Assembly (NCBI GenBank): GCA_028865155.1
Contig: JAGWKW010000004.1
Span: 1 to 16,377, forward strand
From: Alphaproteobacteria bacterium
GTDB taxonomy: Bacteria; Pseudomonadota; Alphaproteobacteria; UBA9219
DNA length: 16,377 bases
Reading direction: 5' to 3'
Both the position numbers and the translations under genes were made by a program. Below the pieces are notes generated by a model. It saw only the letters and a list, made by a program, of their open reading frames with translations. It had not been told where the DNA came from and ran no database searches. Below are positions 5,692 to 12,041 of the stretch, piece by piece (the stretch's first letter is position 1; each line of letters begins with the position of its first letter).

Positions 5692-7731
5692 ATGGCCTCT
5701 GAACCCCAGAAAAACCTGAACGGCGTCGAAAGCGTTCCCCTGAGCGGTCGCGTCGAGGTTTTCCCGACCATGCCGCTGCCCGACCTCGACGCAGCGGGCG
5801 GCAAGGCCTACGCAGCGCGGTTCAGGACCGAGGCTTCGGCCGATCTTTTTGCCATCATCTGCCTTTCGAGCCTGCTGCCGCGCCCCGAAGATCTCAACAC
5901 GCTGCGTGGGCTCGACAACCCCCATATCATCCGCTTCGTCGAAAGCGGCGTCGTTGACTGGCCTGACGGTGGGCGCGCCTATGCCATCGTCTACCAAAGG
6001 CCGCTCGCGCCCCGCATGATGACCGATATCGACGAAACCCGCACACCCTTGAGCGAAGACGCCATCAACCACCACTTCATCATGCCGATGATCGACGCGC
6101 TGGCTACGCTCAGCGCTTCAGGCATCGTGCACAACGGGATCAGGCCCAACAATATTTTCTGGCGCATCGGCAACGCGGCGCCGCCGCAAATCGGCGAGTG
6201 CCTGTCGGCGCCGGGCGGCGTGGGCCAGCCGGTTTTGTTCGAACCGATCGAGCGCGCTCTGGCCACGCCCATGGGGCGCGGGCGCGGCACCCATGCCGAC
6301 GATTGCTATGCTTTCGGCGTGACGCTCGCGCTTTTGGTTCTTGGCAAAAATCCGATGCAGGGCATGAACGACGCCGAGATCATCGACGCGAAGATGCAGC
6401 GCGGCAGTTTCGGCACCCTGGTCGGCGCGCAACGCCTGTCGCCGACCCATATCGAGATTCTGCGCGGACTTCTGGTCGACGATGCGCGCCAGCGCTGGAC
6501 GGCAGCCAACCTCGAACAATGGCTGAGCGGACGGCGCATGACGCCGAAAAACTCGGATGCCGGGCGGCGCGGCGCGCGCCACCTCGAATTCGAAGGCAAA
6601 AATTACTGGCAAACGGCGCCCTTGGCCTGCGCGCTGGCCGCGAATGTTTCCGAGGCGGCCAAATTGATCGAAAATGACGGTCTCGACAAATGGCTGCGCC
6701 GCGCCCTCAACGACGAGGAACGCGCCAACCAAATCAAGGGAATTCTCGACGAGCTCAAGCAAAGCGGCAAGAGCGCGCATTATGAGGAGCAGCTCGTCGC
6801 CCGCGTCTGCATCGCGCTCGACAGCGCCGCGCCGATCCGCTACCGCGGCCTTGCGGTCATGCCGGCAGGCCTCGCGCCGCTTCTGGCCGAAGGGGCGGCG
6901 GCTGGAAGTGGCGGCAACATCCCCGTTTTGTGCGAAATCATCGCGAGCCGCCTAGCCGGGCTGTGGATCGAGGCGCAGCGCGAGATCGGCCCGGAACAGA
7001 TTGCCCTGCTCCAGCTTTTCGACCGGATGAAGGGCGTACTTGAAAAAACGTCGTTCGGCAGCGGCGTCGAGCGCGTCGTCTATGAGCTCGACACCGGCGC
7101 ACCTTGCCTGAGCCCGATGCTCAAAGGACAATATGTCATGTCTCCCAAAACGCTTCTGCCCGCGCTCGAACGCGTCGCCGCGTCCGGAAACCGCCCCAGC
7201 GAACCGATCGACCGCCACATTGCCGCTTTCATGCTATCGCGCGAAAAACGGGGCGAGGCCATGTTTGCGGCGCTCGGCGGGCCCGACGGCTCGTCGCGGC
7301 GCGGCGTTGCGCTTTTATCGTTGTTTTCCGAACTTCAGTACCGGCACGGACCCGAAAGGCTGCCGCACCTGGCAGGCTGGCTTGTGCCTTTCATCGAACC
7401 GGCGCTGCGCCGCTTCCTTGGCAAATCCTTGCGCGACCGCCTGCATAAACAGGTCAAGGAAGCAGTCGCCGACGGAAGCCTGCCCACTCTTTTGCGCCTG
7501 ATCGACGATCCGCGCCGCATCGAACGCGACCGGCAAGAATTCATCGCGGCGCGGCTTTTGCACCTGAACACGCAAAAGGAAATCGTCGGACTCGAGGCCA
7601 AGCTCGGCAACCGCGACAGCATCGTGCGCAGCGCGGGCAAGCCGACCGCGGCATCGATCAGCAGCCTGCTTGCGATTATCCTGATATGCGCGGCCGTGCT
7701 ACGCGCGCTGTTTGGGCTCCTGATGCAATAA
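5692..7731 (+). CDS. tail-anchored protein kinase-like protein, probable pseudokinase
   Basis: Residues of about 20-290 have the layout of a eukaryotic-like Ser/Thr kinase, but the catalytic elements are lost. The HRD loop is HNG in [14 protein letters not shown] (His147, Asn148, Gly149), so the catalytic Asp is Gly and the following Lys position is Arg. The DFG Mg-binding motif is replaced by IGEC (167-170). The N-lobe VAIK lysine is not visible (LFAIICLSS). The structural motif [17 protein letters not shown] (202-218, normally DVYSFG) is kept. The second half is a helical region of unknown type containing [13 protein letters not shown] single hydrophobic helix ends the protein (about 656-677, with an Arg inside), which predicts a tail-anchored inner-membrane protein with the fold in the cytoplasm. 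The gene begins 39 bases after tilS on the same strand and no terminator separates them. No clear ribosome binding site is seen. I infer a scaffold or nucleotide/protein sensor rather than a kinase. Confidence -1.
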
Positions 7732-7829: not shown

Positions 7830-9797
7830 ATGTCCGATTTGTTTCCCGTTTCTCCCGCCGCAGCCAAAGCCGCATGGATCGATGCCGAGACCTACGAATC
7901 CATGTATGCGCAATCGACAGTCGAGCCAGAAACTTTCTGGGGCGAACAAGGCAAATATCTCGACTGGATCCGCCCCTACACAAAAATCCGCAGCGGCGGC
8001 TTTACCGGCAACGCGCATATCAAATGGTTCGAAGACGGCACGCTCAACGCCGCCGCCAACTGCATCGACCGCCATCTGCCCGACCGCGCCAATCAAATCG
8101 CGATTATCTGGGAGCCTGACGATCCGAACGAACCCGCGCAGCGCATCACCTATAAAGAACTGAGCGAAAAAACCGGCGCCTTTGCCAACGTTCTCAAACG
8201 CCATGGCGTCGTGCGCGGCGACCGGGTCGTTGTTTATCTGCCGATGATCCCCGAAGCGGCCTATGCGATGCTGGCCTGCGCGCGCATCGGCGCGATCCAT
8301 TCGATCGTGTTCGCGGGCTTTTCTCCGCACAGCTTGCGCGACCGCATCATCGATTGCGGCGCGAAGCTCGTGATCACGGCGGACGAAGGTTTGCGCGGCG
8401 GCAAGCGCGTGTCGCTCAAGGCCAACATGGACGAGGCCATCGCTTCCTGCCCCGAGGTGAAAAAATGTCTCACCGTACGGCGCACCGGCGGTTGTGTGCC
8501 GTGGCAGGCAGGGCGCGATGTCTGGCTGCATGAGGAGATGGATAAAGTTCCCCCCCATTGCAAAGCCGAGGAAATGAGCGCCGAGGACCCGCTTTTCATC
8601 CTCTACACGTCGGGGTCGACCGGCACGCCCAAAGGCGTGCTGCACACAACCGGCGGCTATCTTCTGTACGCGGCGCTAACGCATAAATGGGTTCTCGACT
8701 ACCATGACGGCGAGACCTACTGGTGTGGCGCGGATATCGGCTGGATCACCGGGCACAGCTATATCGTTTATGGCCCGCTCGCCAACGGCGCGACGACGCT
8801 TATGTATGAGGGTGTGCCGACCTATCCCGATCCGTCGCGTTTCTGGCAGATCGTCGACAAGCATAGGGTCAATATCTTCTACACCGCGCCGACCGCGATC
8901 CGCGCGCTGATGCGCGAGGGCGAAGGCTGGGTGCGCAAAACGAGCCGTAGTTCCTTGCGCCTGCTCGCGTCGGTCGGCGAGCCGATCAATCCCGAAGCCT
9001 GGCTCTGGTATTACCGCGAAATCGGCAACGGCAAATGCCCGGTCATCGACACCTGGTGGCAAACCGAAACCGGTGGCCACATGATTGCGCCGCTTCCAGG
9101 CGCGATCACGCTCAAACCCGGATCGGCAACGCGACCCTTCTTTGGCGTCAAACCCGTCATCCTCGACAGCGCAGGCAATGTCGTGCATGGCGCCTGCGAA
9201 GGCGTTTTATGCATTGCCGAACCATGGCCCGGCATGATGCGCACGATCTATGGCGACCATGCACGTTTCGTCAAAACCTATCTCGCCCCCTATGAAGGCA
9301 TATATTTCACCGGCGACGGCTGCAGGCGCGACGAAGACGGTTATTACTGGATAACGGGGCGCGTCGACGACGTCATCAATGTCGCGGGGCACCGGCTCAG
9401 CACGGCCGAGATCGAAAGCGCCTGCGTTGCGCATGAAGCGGTGGCCGAGGCTGCTGTCGTCGCCTGCCCGCATGACATCAAAGGCCAGGGCATTTACGTC
9501 TATGTGACGCTGAAGAACGGGATCGACGGCAGCGACGGATTGCGCAAAGAGCTGGTCGAGACGATCCGCCACACGATCAGTCCTATTGCGACTCCCGATT
9601 ATATCCAGTGGGCGCCGGCTTTGCCGAAAACGCGATCCGGCAAGATCATGCGGCGTATTTTACGGAAAATCGCCGCGCTAGAGGCGGAAAACCTTGGAGA
9701 TGTTTCAACGCTCGCCGACCCGTCCGTTGTCGAACTGCTTATCAAAGGATGCTTAATTGCGCCGAAGACTCCTTCTTCTTCGCAAGCAGCATCATAA
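7830..9797 (+). CDS. acs: acetyl-coenzyme A synthetase
   Basis: This is AMP-forming acetate:CoA ligase, which turns acetate, ATP and CoA into acetyl-CoA through acetyl-AMP in the cytoplasm. The 655-residue length matches the family (652 in E. coli). The A3 ATP-binding signature [11 protein letters not shown] is at residues 259-269. The acetate-pocket stretch [19 protein letters not shown] and the A5 motif [10 protein letters not shown] are intact. YFTGDG and [13 protein letters not shown] of the hinge are present. The regulatory lysine of [11 protein letters not shown] is Lys605, the site acetylated in many Acs enzymes. The start at 7830 is preceded by AAGGGG (7818-7823) at good spacing; an earlier in-frame ATG at 7686 lies inside the pseudokinase gene and would add an unrelated tail. 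The C-terminus is longer than usual after ADPSVVELL and overlaps ppsR. Confidence -1.
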
Positions 9798-10572
9798 TTT
9801 CCGCCGCCGTTTCTTCTATCGAGCGCCGCGACACGTCGATGATTGGGCAGCCGATGCGCGCGAAGAAGCGCCGCGCCTCCATAACTTCGGCACGCACTTT
9901 TTCGGGGTCGACATAGGCAGTATCGCGCTTTTCGCTTAGTAAATGCAGGCGGCTGCGGCGGATCGCGATGAGGCTGTCAGGATCCTTGGTCAAGCCTACG
10001 ACAAGGGGTTTTTTCAGCGTATCAATATCGAATGGCAACGGAATGCCGGGCACGATCGGGATATTGGCGGCGCGGATACCGCGCCCCGCCAAATAAATGC
10101 AGGTCGGCGTTTTCGATGTGCGTGACACGCCCAGAATGACGACATCGGCGTCACGCAGCCGCTCGATGCCATGGCCGTCATCCTGCGCCATCGCGAAATC
10201 CATCGCATCGATGCGCGCAAAATAGCTTTCGTCGAGTGAATGCTGCTTGCCCGGCATATGGGTCGGTTTGTGTCCGAACAGGTCGACCATGCCATGCAGG
10301 ACCGGCTTCAGCACTGACACGCAAGAAATTTTGTCCGCGCGGCAGGCTTCCTCAAGCGTTTCACGCAATTCTTCATCGACGAAAGTGTAAAGGACAAGGC
10401 CGGGATTTTCCTGAATGCCCGCGATGACCGTTTTGAGCTGGCGCGGCGTGCGAACAAGGTTCCAGACATGCTCAGTGATATCGGTGCCTTCGAACTGAGC
10501 GAGGCAGGCGCGCGCCACCGCGCCGATGGTTTCGCCGGTCGAATCCGATACAAGATGGAGCTGAAAAGCCAT
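9742..10572 (-). CDS. ppsR: pyruvate, phosphate dikinase / PEP synthase regulatory protein (DUF299)
   Basis: Proteins of this family are bifunctional: they inactivate PPDK or PEP synthase by ADP-dependent phosphorylation of a threonine and reactivate it by Pi-dependent dephosphorylation, which controls pyruvate/PEP flux. The N-terminal signature [11 protein letters not shown] is at residues 6-14, the conserved [12 protein letters not shown] follows, and the P-loop GVSRTSKT is at 148-155. The 276-residue length is normal. Its 3' end overlaps acs by 56 bp in convergent orientation. Its start faces the putative origin and hemE across 434 bp, which matches the Rickettsia/Caulobacter RP001-origin-hemE arrangement that I know for alphaproteobacteria. 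PPDK is the more usual target in this class, but the target gene is not in the window. The ribosome binding site is weak. Confidence -1.
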
Positions 10573-10659
10573 GTTGGCAAAGAGCGCGCAAGATAAGGTC
10601 GTTGAAAAGTCTATTCTCTACCGCTTACTTCATCGCCTTCTCTGTATAAAGCGGAATCG

Positions 10660-10668
10660 TGGGGATAA
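10660..10668 (-). promoter_or_regulatory. DnaA-like box (TTATCCCCA on the minus strand)
   Basis: The plus strand reads TGGGGATAA, so the minus strand reads TTATCCCCA, one mismatch from the consensus DnaA box and containing the weak W-box core TCCCCA. Confidence -1.
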
Positions 10669-10714
10669 GTTGCGCTCTTGCGCATTCCTTTCTTTTTTTC
10701 CCCCATCAGGCTTT

Positions 10715-10771
10715 GGCTTTCCACCATTTCCTTTTCCGGGAATAAAAAACACAGGCTGTCTGTGGAAAGCC
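10715..10771. repeat. 10-bp perfect inverted repeat with DnaA-like arms
   Basis: GGCTTTCCAC (10715-10724) and GTGGAAAGCC (10762-10771) are exact inverted repeats separated by 37 bases. The right arm gives a DnaA-like sequence CTTTCCACA on the minus strand. The arms may be oppositely oriented initiator sites rather than a hairpin. Confidence -1.
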
Positions 10772-10783
10772 GGGATAAAAAAC
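10736..10783 (+). repeat. direct repeat of about 14 bp inside the putative origin
   Basis: CCGGGAATAAAAAAC (10736-10750) and CCGGGATAAAAAAC (10770-10783) differ only by one extra A and lie 34 bp apart, start to start. GGGATAA is the complement of TTATCCC, so these may be weak initiator sites. Confidence -1.
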
Positions 10784-10798
10784 TGAAAATCGCCCCCA

Positions 10799-10807
10799 TG
10801 ATCCACA
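10799..10807 (+). promoter_or_regulatory. DnaA G-box (TGATCCACA)
   Basis: TGATCCACA is one mismatch from the classic DnaA box TTATCCACA and is identical to the G-box of the Caulobacter origin as I know it. It sits at the left edge of the AT-rich stretch, a sensible position for loading an unwinding element. Confidence -1.
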
Positions 10808-10973
10808 GGGACGTCAAGACAATTCCTAATAACTGGTTAAGAATAATTTACTAACAAAGTTTTAATTTAACTTTTGATCAATAAACGAACGCACCTTGCT
10901 GAACAAAATTTGTATATTCTTTTCCTGTATTTAATCCCCATCTTCCCCTATACCAACTACTTACCCCTACTCT

Positions 10974-10988
10974 TTAATATAAAATTAA
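10974..10988 (+). promoter_or_regulatory. CtrA-type site TTAA-N7-TTAA upstream of hemE
   Basis: TTAA at 10974-10977, seven bases, then TTAA at 10985-10988 is a full match to the CtrA recognition consensus. It ends 18 bases before the hemE GTG and overlaps the TATAAAA stretch that is the best -10 candidate, a position from which bound CtrA could repress hemE and the origin. Looser one-mismatch sites occur at 10837-10851, 10851-10865 and 10867-10881, but the region is AT-rich and these could be chance. Confidence -1.
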
Positions 10989-11006
10989 GATAAAGGAAAA
11001 ACGCGC

Positions 11007-12041
11007 GTGAATAGAATCCGTAAACCGATCCTCGATGTTCTTTGCGGACAGATTCCCGAACACATTCCGGTCTGGCTCATGCGCCAGGCAGGGCGTTTCC
11101 TTCCAGAGTACCGGGAAATAAGGGCCAAATCTAAAAATTTCCTTAACATGTGTTTGACGCCAGACCTGGCGACCGAAATAACCCTTCAGCCCGTCCGCCG
11201 TTTCGACATGGATGCCGCCATCCTTTTTTCCGACATCCTGATCGTTCCCATGGCACTCGGTTTGTCCCTCGATTTCCGCGAAGGCGAAGGCCCGGTTTTG
11301 CAGACAGTTTCCGATCAGGCTTCGATCTCCGTTCTCGAATATAATTCCGAAAAAGCTGCGCCGGTTTTTGAAACCGTTCGCCGCGTCAAACAATCCCTGT
11401 CCGGCATGCCGACAACCTTGATCGGCTTTTGCGGCGCGCCTTGGACGGTTGCCTGCTATATGATCGACGGCAACAGCAAAAATGATTTCGCCGCAGCCAG
11501 GGCATGGGCTGCAAATGAGCCGGGGAAGCTTGACACGCTGATCGAAAAGCTTATCGACGCAAGCGAAACCTATCTTGCCGCACAAATTGAAGCCGGGGCC
11601 GAAGCTTTGCAGATTTTCGACAGCTGGGCGGGATCCTTGAAAGGCGAGGATTTCGCCCATTTCATCATTGCGCCGACACGTAAACTTGTTTCGCGCCTCA
11701 AGAAAAAATATCCCGAAATCCCGATCATCGGCTTCCCGCGCGAAGCGGGCGACGGATACAGGCCTTATATCGAACAAACAGGCGTCGATGCCTTAAGCAT
11801 CGATCCATCGGTTGCCCTCGATTATGCGAAACGCGAACTCCAAACCGTCAAGCCGTTGCAAGGCAATCTCGATCCCGAACTTCTGGTTCGCGGCGGCGAA
11901 GGCATGAAACGCGCGGCGGCATGCATCCTCGATGCGCTTGGCCCGCGCCATATTTTCAATCTCGGCCATGGCGTTGTGCCTCAAACGCCGGTCGAAAACG
12001 TTTCTGCGCTCGTCGAGCAGGTCAGAAATTTCCGGATATGA
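11007..12041 (+). CDS. hemE: uroporphyrinogen decarboxylase
   Basis: HemE removes the four acetate carboxyls of uroporphyrinogen III to give coproporphyrinogen III, without a cofactor, in the cytoplasm. The 344-residue protein carries the signature PVWLMRQAGRFLPEYR with substrate-binding Arg26 and Arg30, the catalytic Asp76 in FSDIL, GAPWTVACYMIDG (143-155) with Tyr151, FDSWAG, and the late NLGHGV histidine. It starts with GTG at 11007, supported by AAAGG at 10992-10996. The stop overlaps the hemH start as ATGA, so the two are translationally coupled. It faces ppsR across the putative origin, and a CtrA-type site lies on its promoter. Confidence -1.
   Translation: MNRIRKPILDVLCGQIPEHIPVWLMRQAGRFLPEYREIRAKSKNFLNMCLTPDLATEITLQPVRRFDMDAAILFSDILIVPMALGLSLDFREGEGPVLQTVSDQASISVLEYNSEKAAPVFETVRRVKQSLSGMPTTLIGFCGAPWTVACYMIDGNSKNDFAAARAWAANEPGKLDTLIEKLIDASETYLAAQIEAGAEALQIFDSWAGSLKGEDFAHFIIAPTRKLVSRLKKKYPEIPIIGFPREAGDGYRPYIEQTGVDALSIDPSVALDYAKRELQTVKPLQGNLDPELLVRGGEGMKRAAACILDALGPRHIFNLGHGVVPQTPVENVSALVEQVRNFRI

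Follow-up and report, generated by a model that had tools for sequence, protein, structure and literature searches.

The window, i.e., the whole stretch of 16,377 nucleotides analyzed here, corresponds to the complete contig C151 of an alphaproteobacterial draft assembly (1,542,811 bases in 285 contigs, 82% complete). Within this window, a gap of 434 bp separates two divergently oriented genes, ppsR and hemE, and both the orientation and the gene names proposed in an earlier sequence-only reading were borne out by matches to the corresponding Pfam families (Table 1). The intergenic region hence borders hemE on one side and a gene of the COG1806 family on the other. Downstream of hemE, the genes hemH and rho are followed by an incomplete queH-type gene running off the contig end. 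To the left of ppsR, acs, a gene with a sub-threshold kinase match, tilS, a gene encoding a TPR protein and an AcrB-type gene were observed. Positions 5692-7731 of the window encode a 679-aa protein for which a sub-threshold protein kinase match was the sole match, and which is conserved in the relatives G002, G003 and G006 (relatives are designated by G numbers).

Table 1. Flanking genes and sequence features of the ppsR-hemE gap (positions refer to the window).
Feature	Position	Strand	Basis or remark
ppsR (COG1806 / Kinase-PPPase), left flank	9742..10572	-	Pfam PF03618, 306 bits
Proposed oriC (whole gap)	10573..11006		conserved element; profile matches in relatives
Weak box TTATACAGA	10641..10649	-	2 mismatches to TTATCCACA; in non-conserved part of gap
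DnaA box TTATCCCCA, includes W-box TCCCCA (10660-10665)	10660..10668	-	at most 1 mismatch to TTATCCACA
Weak DnaA box CTTTCCACA	10761..10769	-	2 mismatches to TTATCCACA
Conserved half box (GGGATAAA on +, TTATCCC on -)	10772..10779	-	six-gap alignment
DnaA box TGATCCACA, Caulobacter G-box (PMC4285127, excerpt)	10799..10807	+	exact identity
AT-rich stretch, proposed unwinding region	10821..11000		27.8% GC, lowest-GC 180 bp of the contig
Overlapping CtrA-type half sites, each one base off	10826..10851		CTAA-N7-TTAA (10826-10840), TTAA-N7-TTAC (10837-10851)
Weak DnaA box TAATCCCCA, W-box TCCCCA (10935-10940)	10932..10940	+	2 mismatches to TTATCCACA
Degenerate DnaA-trio-like run (CCAACTACTTACC on +)	10953..10970	-	2 consecutive strict trios
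Exact CtrA-type site TTAA-N7-TTAA, just upstream of hemE	10974..10988		pattern match
hemE (URO-D), right flank	11007..12041	+	Pfam PF01208, 374 bits

The AT content of the gap is above the contig average, which served as the reference for this comparison (GC contents of 39.6% and 58.8%, respectively). Its right half (34.1% GC, vs. 45.2% in the left half) holds the contig's most AT-rich 180 bp, starting at position 10821, and is indeed AT-rich as previously described. Two boxes with at most one mismatch from TTATCCACA were counted in the gap, with 0.08 expected and 3 of 1000 dinucleotide shuffles reaching this number. When two mismatches were allowed, five boxes were detected (1.29 expected; reached in 7 of 1000 shuffles). 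The gap accordingly contains a cluster of DnaA boxes, though a modest one in number. Across the whole contig, the motif TTWTNCACA (at most one mismatch) was mildly in excess (24 vs. 15.0; 5 of 200 shuffles).

In Caulobacter, the G-box is defined as TGATCCACA and the W-box as TCCCCA (PMC4285127, excerpt). The exact G-box sequence present in the gap occurred in none of 1000 dinucleotide shuffles, and two copies of TCCCCA occurred in 19 of 1000. In relatives, the alignment column of this central box is occupied by TTATCCACA, TTATTCACA or CAATCCACA; since other boxes are found there, the exact G-box represents a variant of the site and not proof of descent, and its exactness is probably a chance variant. 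A G directly 3' of the central box (10799-10807) was found in all six aligned genus gaps. Moreover, GGATAA at the TTATCCCCA site is present in 8/8 aligned gaps, and TTATCCCCA itself in eight of the nine gaps listed, G025 being the one from which it is absent. The DnaA-like boxes claimed by the sequence-only reading are therefore real, but their assignment to the left half is only roughly right, because the G-box is placed slightly to the right of the centre.

The CtrA-type site predicted for the gap was recovered as one exact TTAA-N7-TTAA, the kind of site expected in a Caulobacter-like DnaA/CtrA/IHF origin, and ends 18 bp before hemE. Exact sites of this type were carried by 65 of 1000 shuffles of the AT-rich gap, and three looser TTWW-N7-TTWW sites by 115 of 1000. 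Judged by these shuffle counts, the boxes exceed chance and the CtrA site alone does not, so that it was ruled out as proof on its own; it gains weight only because each of the six genus gaps holds at least one exact site. In addition to these six gaps, which were also used for the profile described below, an exact site was observed in G001, and none was found in the gap of G005. At the aligned place beside the central box, G002, G006, G007 and G009 show an exact TTAA-N7-TTAA, which is one base off in the window. Furthermore, the assembly encodes a ctrA orthologue cut by a contig end (G000:C198:3-605, 373.5 bits, cut-off 350), and CtrA control of the candidate origin appears plausible. IHF sites are listed among the widely conserved features of alphaproteobacterial origins, with the consensus WATCAN5WTR (PMC1914354, excerpt); the exact form of this consensus was found in 0/6 genus gaps.

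DnaA-trios were counted in the window, G002 and G009, leaving out G003, G006 and G007, and runs of two, two and four consecutive trios were obtained, respectively. According to the excerpted text of PMC8287927, a BUS combines a DnaA box with three or more trios in succession no farther than 16 bp away; the window falls short of this published rule of three because just two of its trios are consecutive. A general score combining boxes and trios was rejected as an origin detector for lack of specificity: the conserved trio region ranked first in 0/4 regions, and sites outside the gap ranked first in G003 and G006.

In order to evaluate conservation, the gaps of six genus members (the window, G002, G003, G006, G007 and G009) were aligned, resulting in 99 invariant positions among 357 ungapped columns. 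Without G009, 108 of 358 columns were invariant, compared with a mean of 13.2 and a maximum of 22 in 20 mononucleotide shuffles; the 430 bp preceding rho, a comparison region that is perhaps partly coding, showed 64 invariant columns out of 376 in five species. Invariant blocks are formed by the boxes, by an array rich in TTAA next to the central box and by a right-hand block, TTTAATCCCC...CCAAC...CTA, which in G009 reads as the four consecutive DnaA-trios.

A nucleotide profile of the six gaps was searched against 2.43 Mb of partly overlapping loci, and all matches with E<=1e-3 were located at the ppsR/hemE locus. Furthermore, a model based on sequence only was built from the same gaps for window positions 10768-10990 and applied to 59 genomes, among them the genome of the window itself; up to 38 candidates were scored in each. 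At E<=1e-5, 20 matches in 20 of the 59 genomes were obtained (six from training and 14 held-out genomes); among these best candidates (up to 38 per genome), every one of the 20 neighbours at least one of the two genes ppsR and hemE. The best match elsewhere, within the same up to 38 candidates per genome, was located on G005:C132 (E 2.2e-4), about 6 kb from the dnaA gene of G005. Regarding held-out genus members, G001 and G005 matched strongly, G004 reached E 0.45 at the locus, upstream of rho and behind a match of E 0.096 elsewhere, and G008 showed no model match at the locus. Among family members from other genera, 11/14 matched at E<=1e-5; the match in G011 was weak (E 0.001), and G016 and G017 had none at the locus. 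Matches beyond the family were mostly weak: at the order level, G025 and G031 gave E values of 0.002-0.003 in the gap, and G029 gave no model match at all. A pattern derived from the gaps occurred in 7/59 genomes, once each and at the gap, and its reversed form matched nowhere; having been made from the same gaps, it counts only as a sign of uniqueness.

The element is also retained where one of the flanking genes was not found. In the incomplete assemblies of the genus and family, ppsR was not found in six genomes (G005, G011, G014, G015, G018 and G021), and the element is located directly upstream of hemE in five of these, G011 being the remaining one. In the ppsR-less family members read, aroE-coaE(-dnaQ) lies beside the element, a gene order differing from that left of ppsR in the window. 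In G005, a dciA gene (L115:3260-3847 on G005:C68; PF05258, 40 bits vs. the 24-bit cut-off) adjoins the element. Conversely, hemE was not found in the genus and family genomes G001, G004, G008, G011 and G017 (G044 was left out of this search, and these assemblies are likewise incomplete); a strong model match was obtained in just one of the five, G001, where ppsR and rho are the immediate neighbours of the element on one contig. In the class-level relative G042, hemE is located on another contig, and the element lies 0.8 kb from ppsR, from which it is separated by a PIN-domain gene (L242:2303-2719 on G042:C55). The origin-like model match in this genome coincides in part with the 5' end of a ybeY reading frame. 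For G011, in which neither flanking gene was found, a weak trace of the element was recognized beside aroE-coaE.

These cases bear on the possibility that the gap holds nothing but the promoters of the diverging genes ppsR and hemE, where DnaA and CtrA would control transcription. Its position upstream of two divergent genes and the exact CtrA-type site so close to hemE would fit such a function, and both DnaA and CtrA are known to regulate promoters as well (excerpts of PMC4468827 and PMC7200025). However, since the element is kept beside hemE or ppsR where the other gene was not found or lies on another contig, it is not simply the promoter of either gene, and a weak trace persists in G011, where neither flank was found. 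Moreover, its conservation exceeds that of the region preceding rho. A mere promoter function is accordingly considered very improbable, and the distribution described above shows that the candidate element rather than the gene pair is the conserved entity.

GC skew was evaluated in relatives, including contigs of 106-265 kb from G002, G003 and G006; in the window itself, the skew is mostly negative on both sides of the gap. In these three genus members (in window orientation), the skew takes negative values immediately to the left of the gap and also for 10-18 kb rightward, and the raw cumulative minimum is displaced towards the hemE side, lying at +10.5, +17.8 and +14.4 kb in G002, G003 and G006, respectively. 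The third-position skew corrected for gene strand breaks at +10.7, +21.3 and +12.8 kb, and placing the break at the gap worsened the fit by 11.4, 11.0 and 3.1 log-likelihood units, respectively; this fit imposed no direction constraint and included scattered stretches, and the kb positions originate from a direction-constrained analysis. The sites of the skew switch are located on G002:C9, G003:C9 and G006:C259, +10 to +21 kb from the gap. On the left side of G003, negative skew extends to about -30 kb; values are close to zero from there to -60 kb and turn positive farther out. Genes between 0 and +15 kb in this genome resemble those of the left side on both strands, though just 3 of 16 are encoded on the minus strand. 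Homologues of mnmG, rsmG, parA and parB, named from their translations, were observed at +10 to +15 kb in G003, with parAB at +12.5 to +15 kb.

Outside the genus, the skew profiles are heterogeneous. In G025, a low-amplitude profile has its raw minimum over 125 kb at +0.3 kb. In G029, hemE (244 kb) and ppsR (284 kb) lie 38 kb apart on a contig of 1.83 Mb, and the raw cumulative minimum within a contiguous 160 kb is located 11.2 kb from hemE. Sampled skew on this contig was positive in 10/10 stretches at 238-865 kb and negative in 9/9 stretches from 0.95 Mb to the end as well as in the 2/2 readable at 0-200 kb. A cluster of three boxes in 400 bp was detected upstream of hemE in G029, compared with at most one by ppsR, and the gene-corrected break at -36 kb (-61 to -26) falls by ppsR, not hemE. 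Breaks returned by the unconstrained fit in G025 and G029 were discarded, as they are not origin-like switches. G044 and G046 have local skew minima 48-49 kb away, and in G010 the minimum lies at the edge of the stretch, with none near the gap.

In three genus members, the switch is located at +10 to +21 kb with and without gene-strand correction, which could be taken to mean that the functional origin lies 10-20 kb rightward near parAB and that the gap served as origin formerly or acts as a secondary one. However, no model match with E<=1e-5 was found away from the gap locus in the 59 genomes (best candidates, up to 38 each), and the raw minima of G025 and G029 lie 0.3 and 11 kb, respectively, from the gap or hemE. 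A conserved intergenic block at +19 kb in G003 was also considered as a rival origin and rejected, because it bears a sub-threshold likeness to a SAM_alpha riboswitch (28.7 of the 36 bits required); other intergenic regions near parAB were covered by box and profile scans only. Taken together, an origin near parAB appears very improbable. The riboswitch-like block itself (L164:8094-8168 on G003:C9) aligns in G002 and G006 and is located upstream of a gene that resembles, by reading, a homoserine acyltransferase.

We read the skew as placing the origin in this neighbourhood without resolving the gap, and the earlier wording that the window fixes the replication origin is too strong. The displacement of the switch by 10-20 kb, to about the far side of parB and in the same direction in three species, might reflect unusual initiation or early fork movement (replication starting a second time or a fork stalling near parAB), or a move of the element relative to its neighbours in the common ancestor of these species, although such explanations are regarded as unlikely. 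As a second marker, parS was tried and set aside: G025, G044 and G046 have canonical or near-canonical sites at a distance of 6-17 kb from the gap; none occurs in the genus stretches, where a parS-like TGTTNCACGTGNAACA with at most two mismatches was found neither in the window nor in the stretches read from G001-G006. The parS of this genus may be changed or located elsewhere; G003 possesses a ParB-like gene near +14 kb.

Location of the origin near dnaA is common in many bacteria. The dnaA gene was not found in the own assembly (285 contigs, 82% complete), and the dnaA loci of ten relatives (3.5 kb each) were analyzed, scoring the best 400 bp of each. Boxes with at most one mismatch from TTATCCACA numbered 0-2 at these loci (n=10) and 1-3 in the nine gaps listed. 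Counts alone do not decide on a better box cluster near dnaA, raised by the sequence-only reading as an argument against the gap: dnaA locus and gap tie at two boxes in G002 and G007, and the dnaA locus of G006 has two, vs. one in the gap. No profile match with E<=1e-5 was found at any dnaA locus among the best candidates (up to 38 per genome) of the 59 genomes. The profile of the whole element, not the box count, is what separates the gap from the dnaA loci.

On the upstream side of dnaA, outside the DnaA-domain match, a TTGTCCACA box was observed in 6/10 loci, namely L080, L081, L082, L083, L084 and L086 (belonging to G001, G005, G003, G009, G006 and G002, respectively), at a distance of 0.7-0.8 kb from this match in several relatives. 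This recurrent box perhaps serves dnaA self-regulation. The two near-consensus boxes within 400 bp in G002, G006 and G007, the recurring upstream box and the position of the strongest off-locus match close to dnaA in G005 notwithstanding, an origin near dnaA is scarcely credible, since the best candidates of the profile search include no match with E<=1e-5 there, both boxes of G006 and G007 lie inside the stretch coding for the DnaA domain, the single upstream box fits self-regulation, dnaA lies 63-66 kb from the gap and away from the skew switch in G003 and G006, and, according to the excerpted text of a published survey, proximity of dnaA to ori is not a conserved trait in Rhodospirillales and Sphingomonadales (PMC8116508).

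Comparison with known origins supports an assignment by position. The origins of Caulobacter crescentus and Rickettsia prowazekii are located between hemE and the COG1806 gene (PMC1914354, excerpt). Caulobacter Cori shares with the gap these flanking genes and a similar size (404 bp vs. 434 bp here; same source), an AT content above that of the genome, the G-box and W-box sequences (PMC4285127, excerpt) and CtrA-type sites near a DnaA box (PMC4468827, excerpt). In contrast, Cori has two G-boxes, both near or overlapping CtrA sites (PMC4468827, excerpt), whereas the gap has one G-box, one exact CtrA site and no exact IHF site. The R. prowazekii origin (hemE - RP001), compared here by flanks, length and composition, is likewise similar in its flanking genes and length (384 bp vs. 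434 bp), but contains 82.6% AT vs. 60.4% here (PMC1914354, excerpt).

In Hyphomonas neptunium, read depth peaks near hemE, whereas skew, dnaA and DnaA sites gave no clear answer according to the excerpt of PMC6650430, and CtrA binds beside the origin (PMC7200025, excerpt). The candidate described here resembles it in being hemE-proximal, in an unclear skew and in the vicinity of parAB (about 7 kb from hemE in H. neptunium according to the excerpt of PMC6650430; +12.5 to +15 kb in G003), but was predicted from sequence, whereas the H. neptunium origin was mapped by experiment. Furthermore, ppsR-hemE gaps at 25 Azospirillum loci show the same flanks, lengths of 410-528 bp and several DnaA-type boxes; unlike the gap in the window, they are richer in GC (0.57-0.64), contain an exact CtrA site in 0/25 cases and gave no profile match with E<=1e-3. 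As no exact IHF site was found, classification follows the position of the gap, which is assigned to the hemE-adjacent oriC regions rather than to the full DnaA-CtrA-IHF origins of the Caulobacter type.

Based on these results, the gap very probably represents the chromosomal oriC, in the hemE/COG1806-adjacent position reported for Caulobacter and Rickettsia (PMC1914354, excerpt). Support for this prediction comes mainly from comparison: the element is conserved, occurs as one strong locus per genome and is kept when either flank was not found, in line with the origin first suggested from the sequence. In the proposed mechanism, DnaA would first occupy the left boxes and the central G-box. From there it would extend over the weak box at 10932 into the AT-rich right half; strand opening and helicase loading would take place in this half, so that replication would start in the gap. 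Phosphorylated CtrA, at the sites beside the G-box and before hemE, would exclude DnaA in non-replicating cells.

Place and parts of this candidate origin are of a known kind, which makes the result useful for annotation and unsurprising. A probable origin is hereby marked in an uncultured lineage that has unclassified alphaproteobacterial assemblies as its closest named records, and a sequence profile is available for locating origins in fragmented assemblies of the family. Moreover, the comparison suggests that CtrA sites belong to the origin in this genus, the Azospirillum gaps examined being without them.
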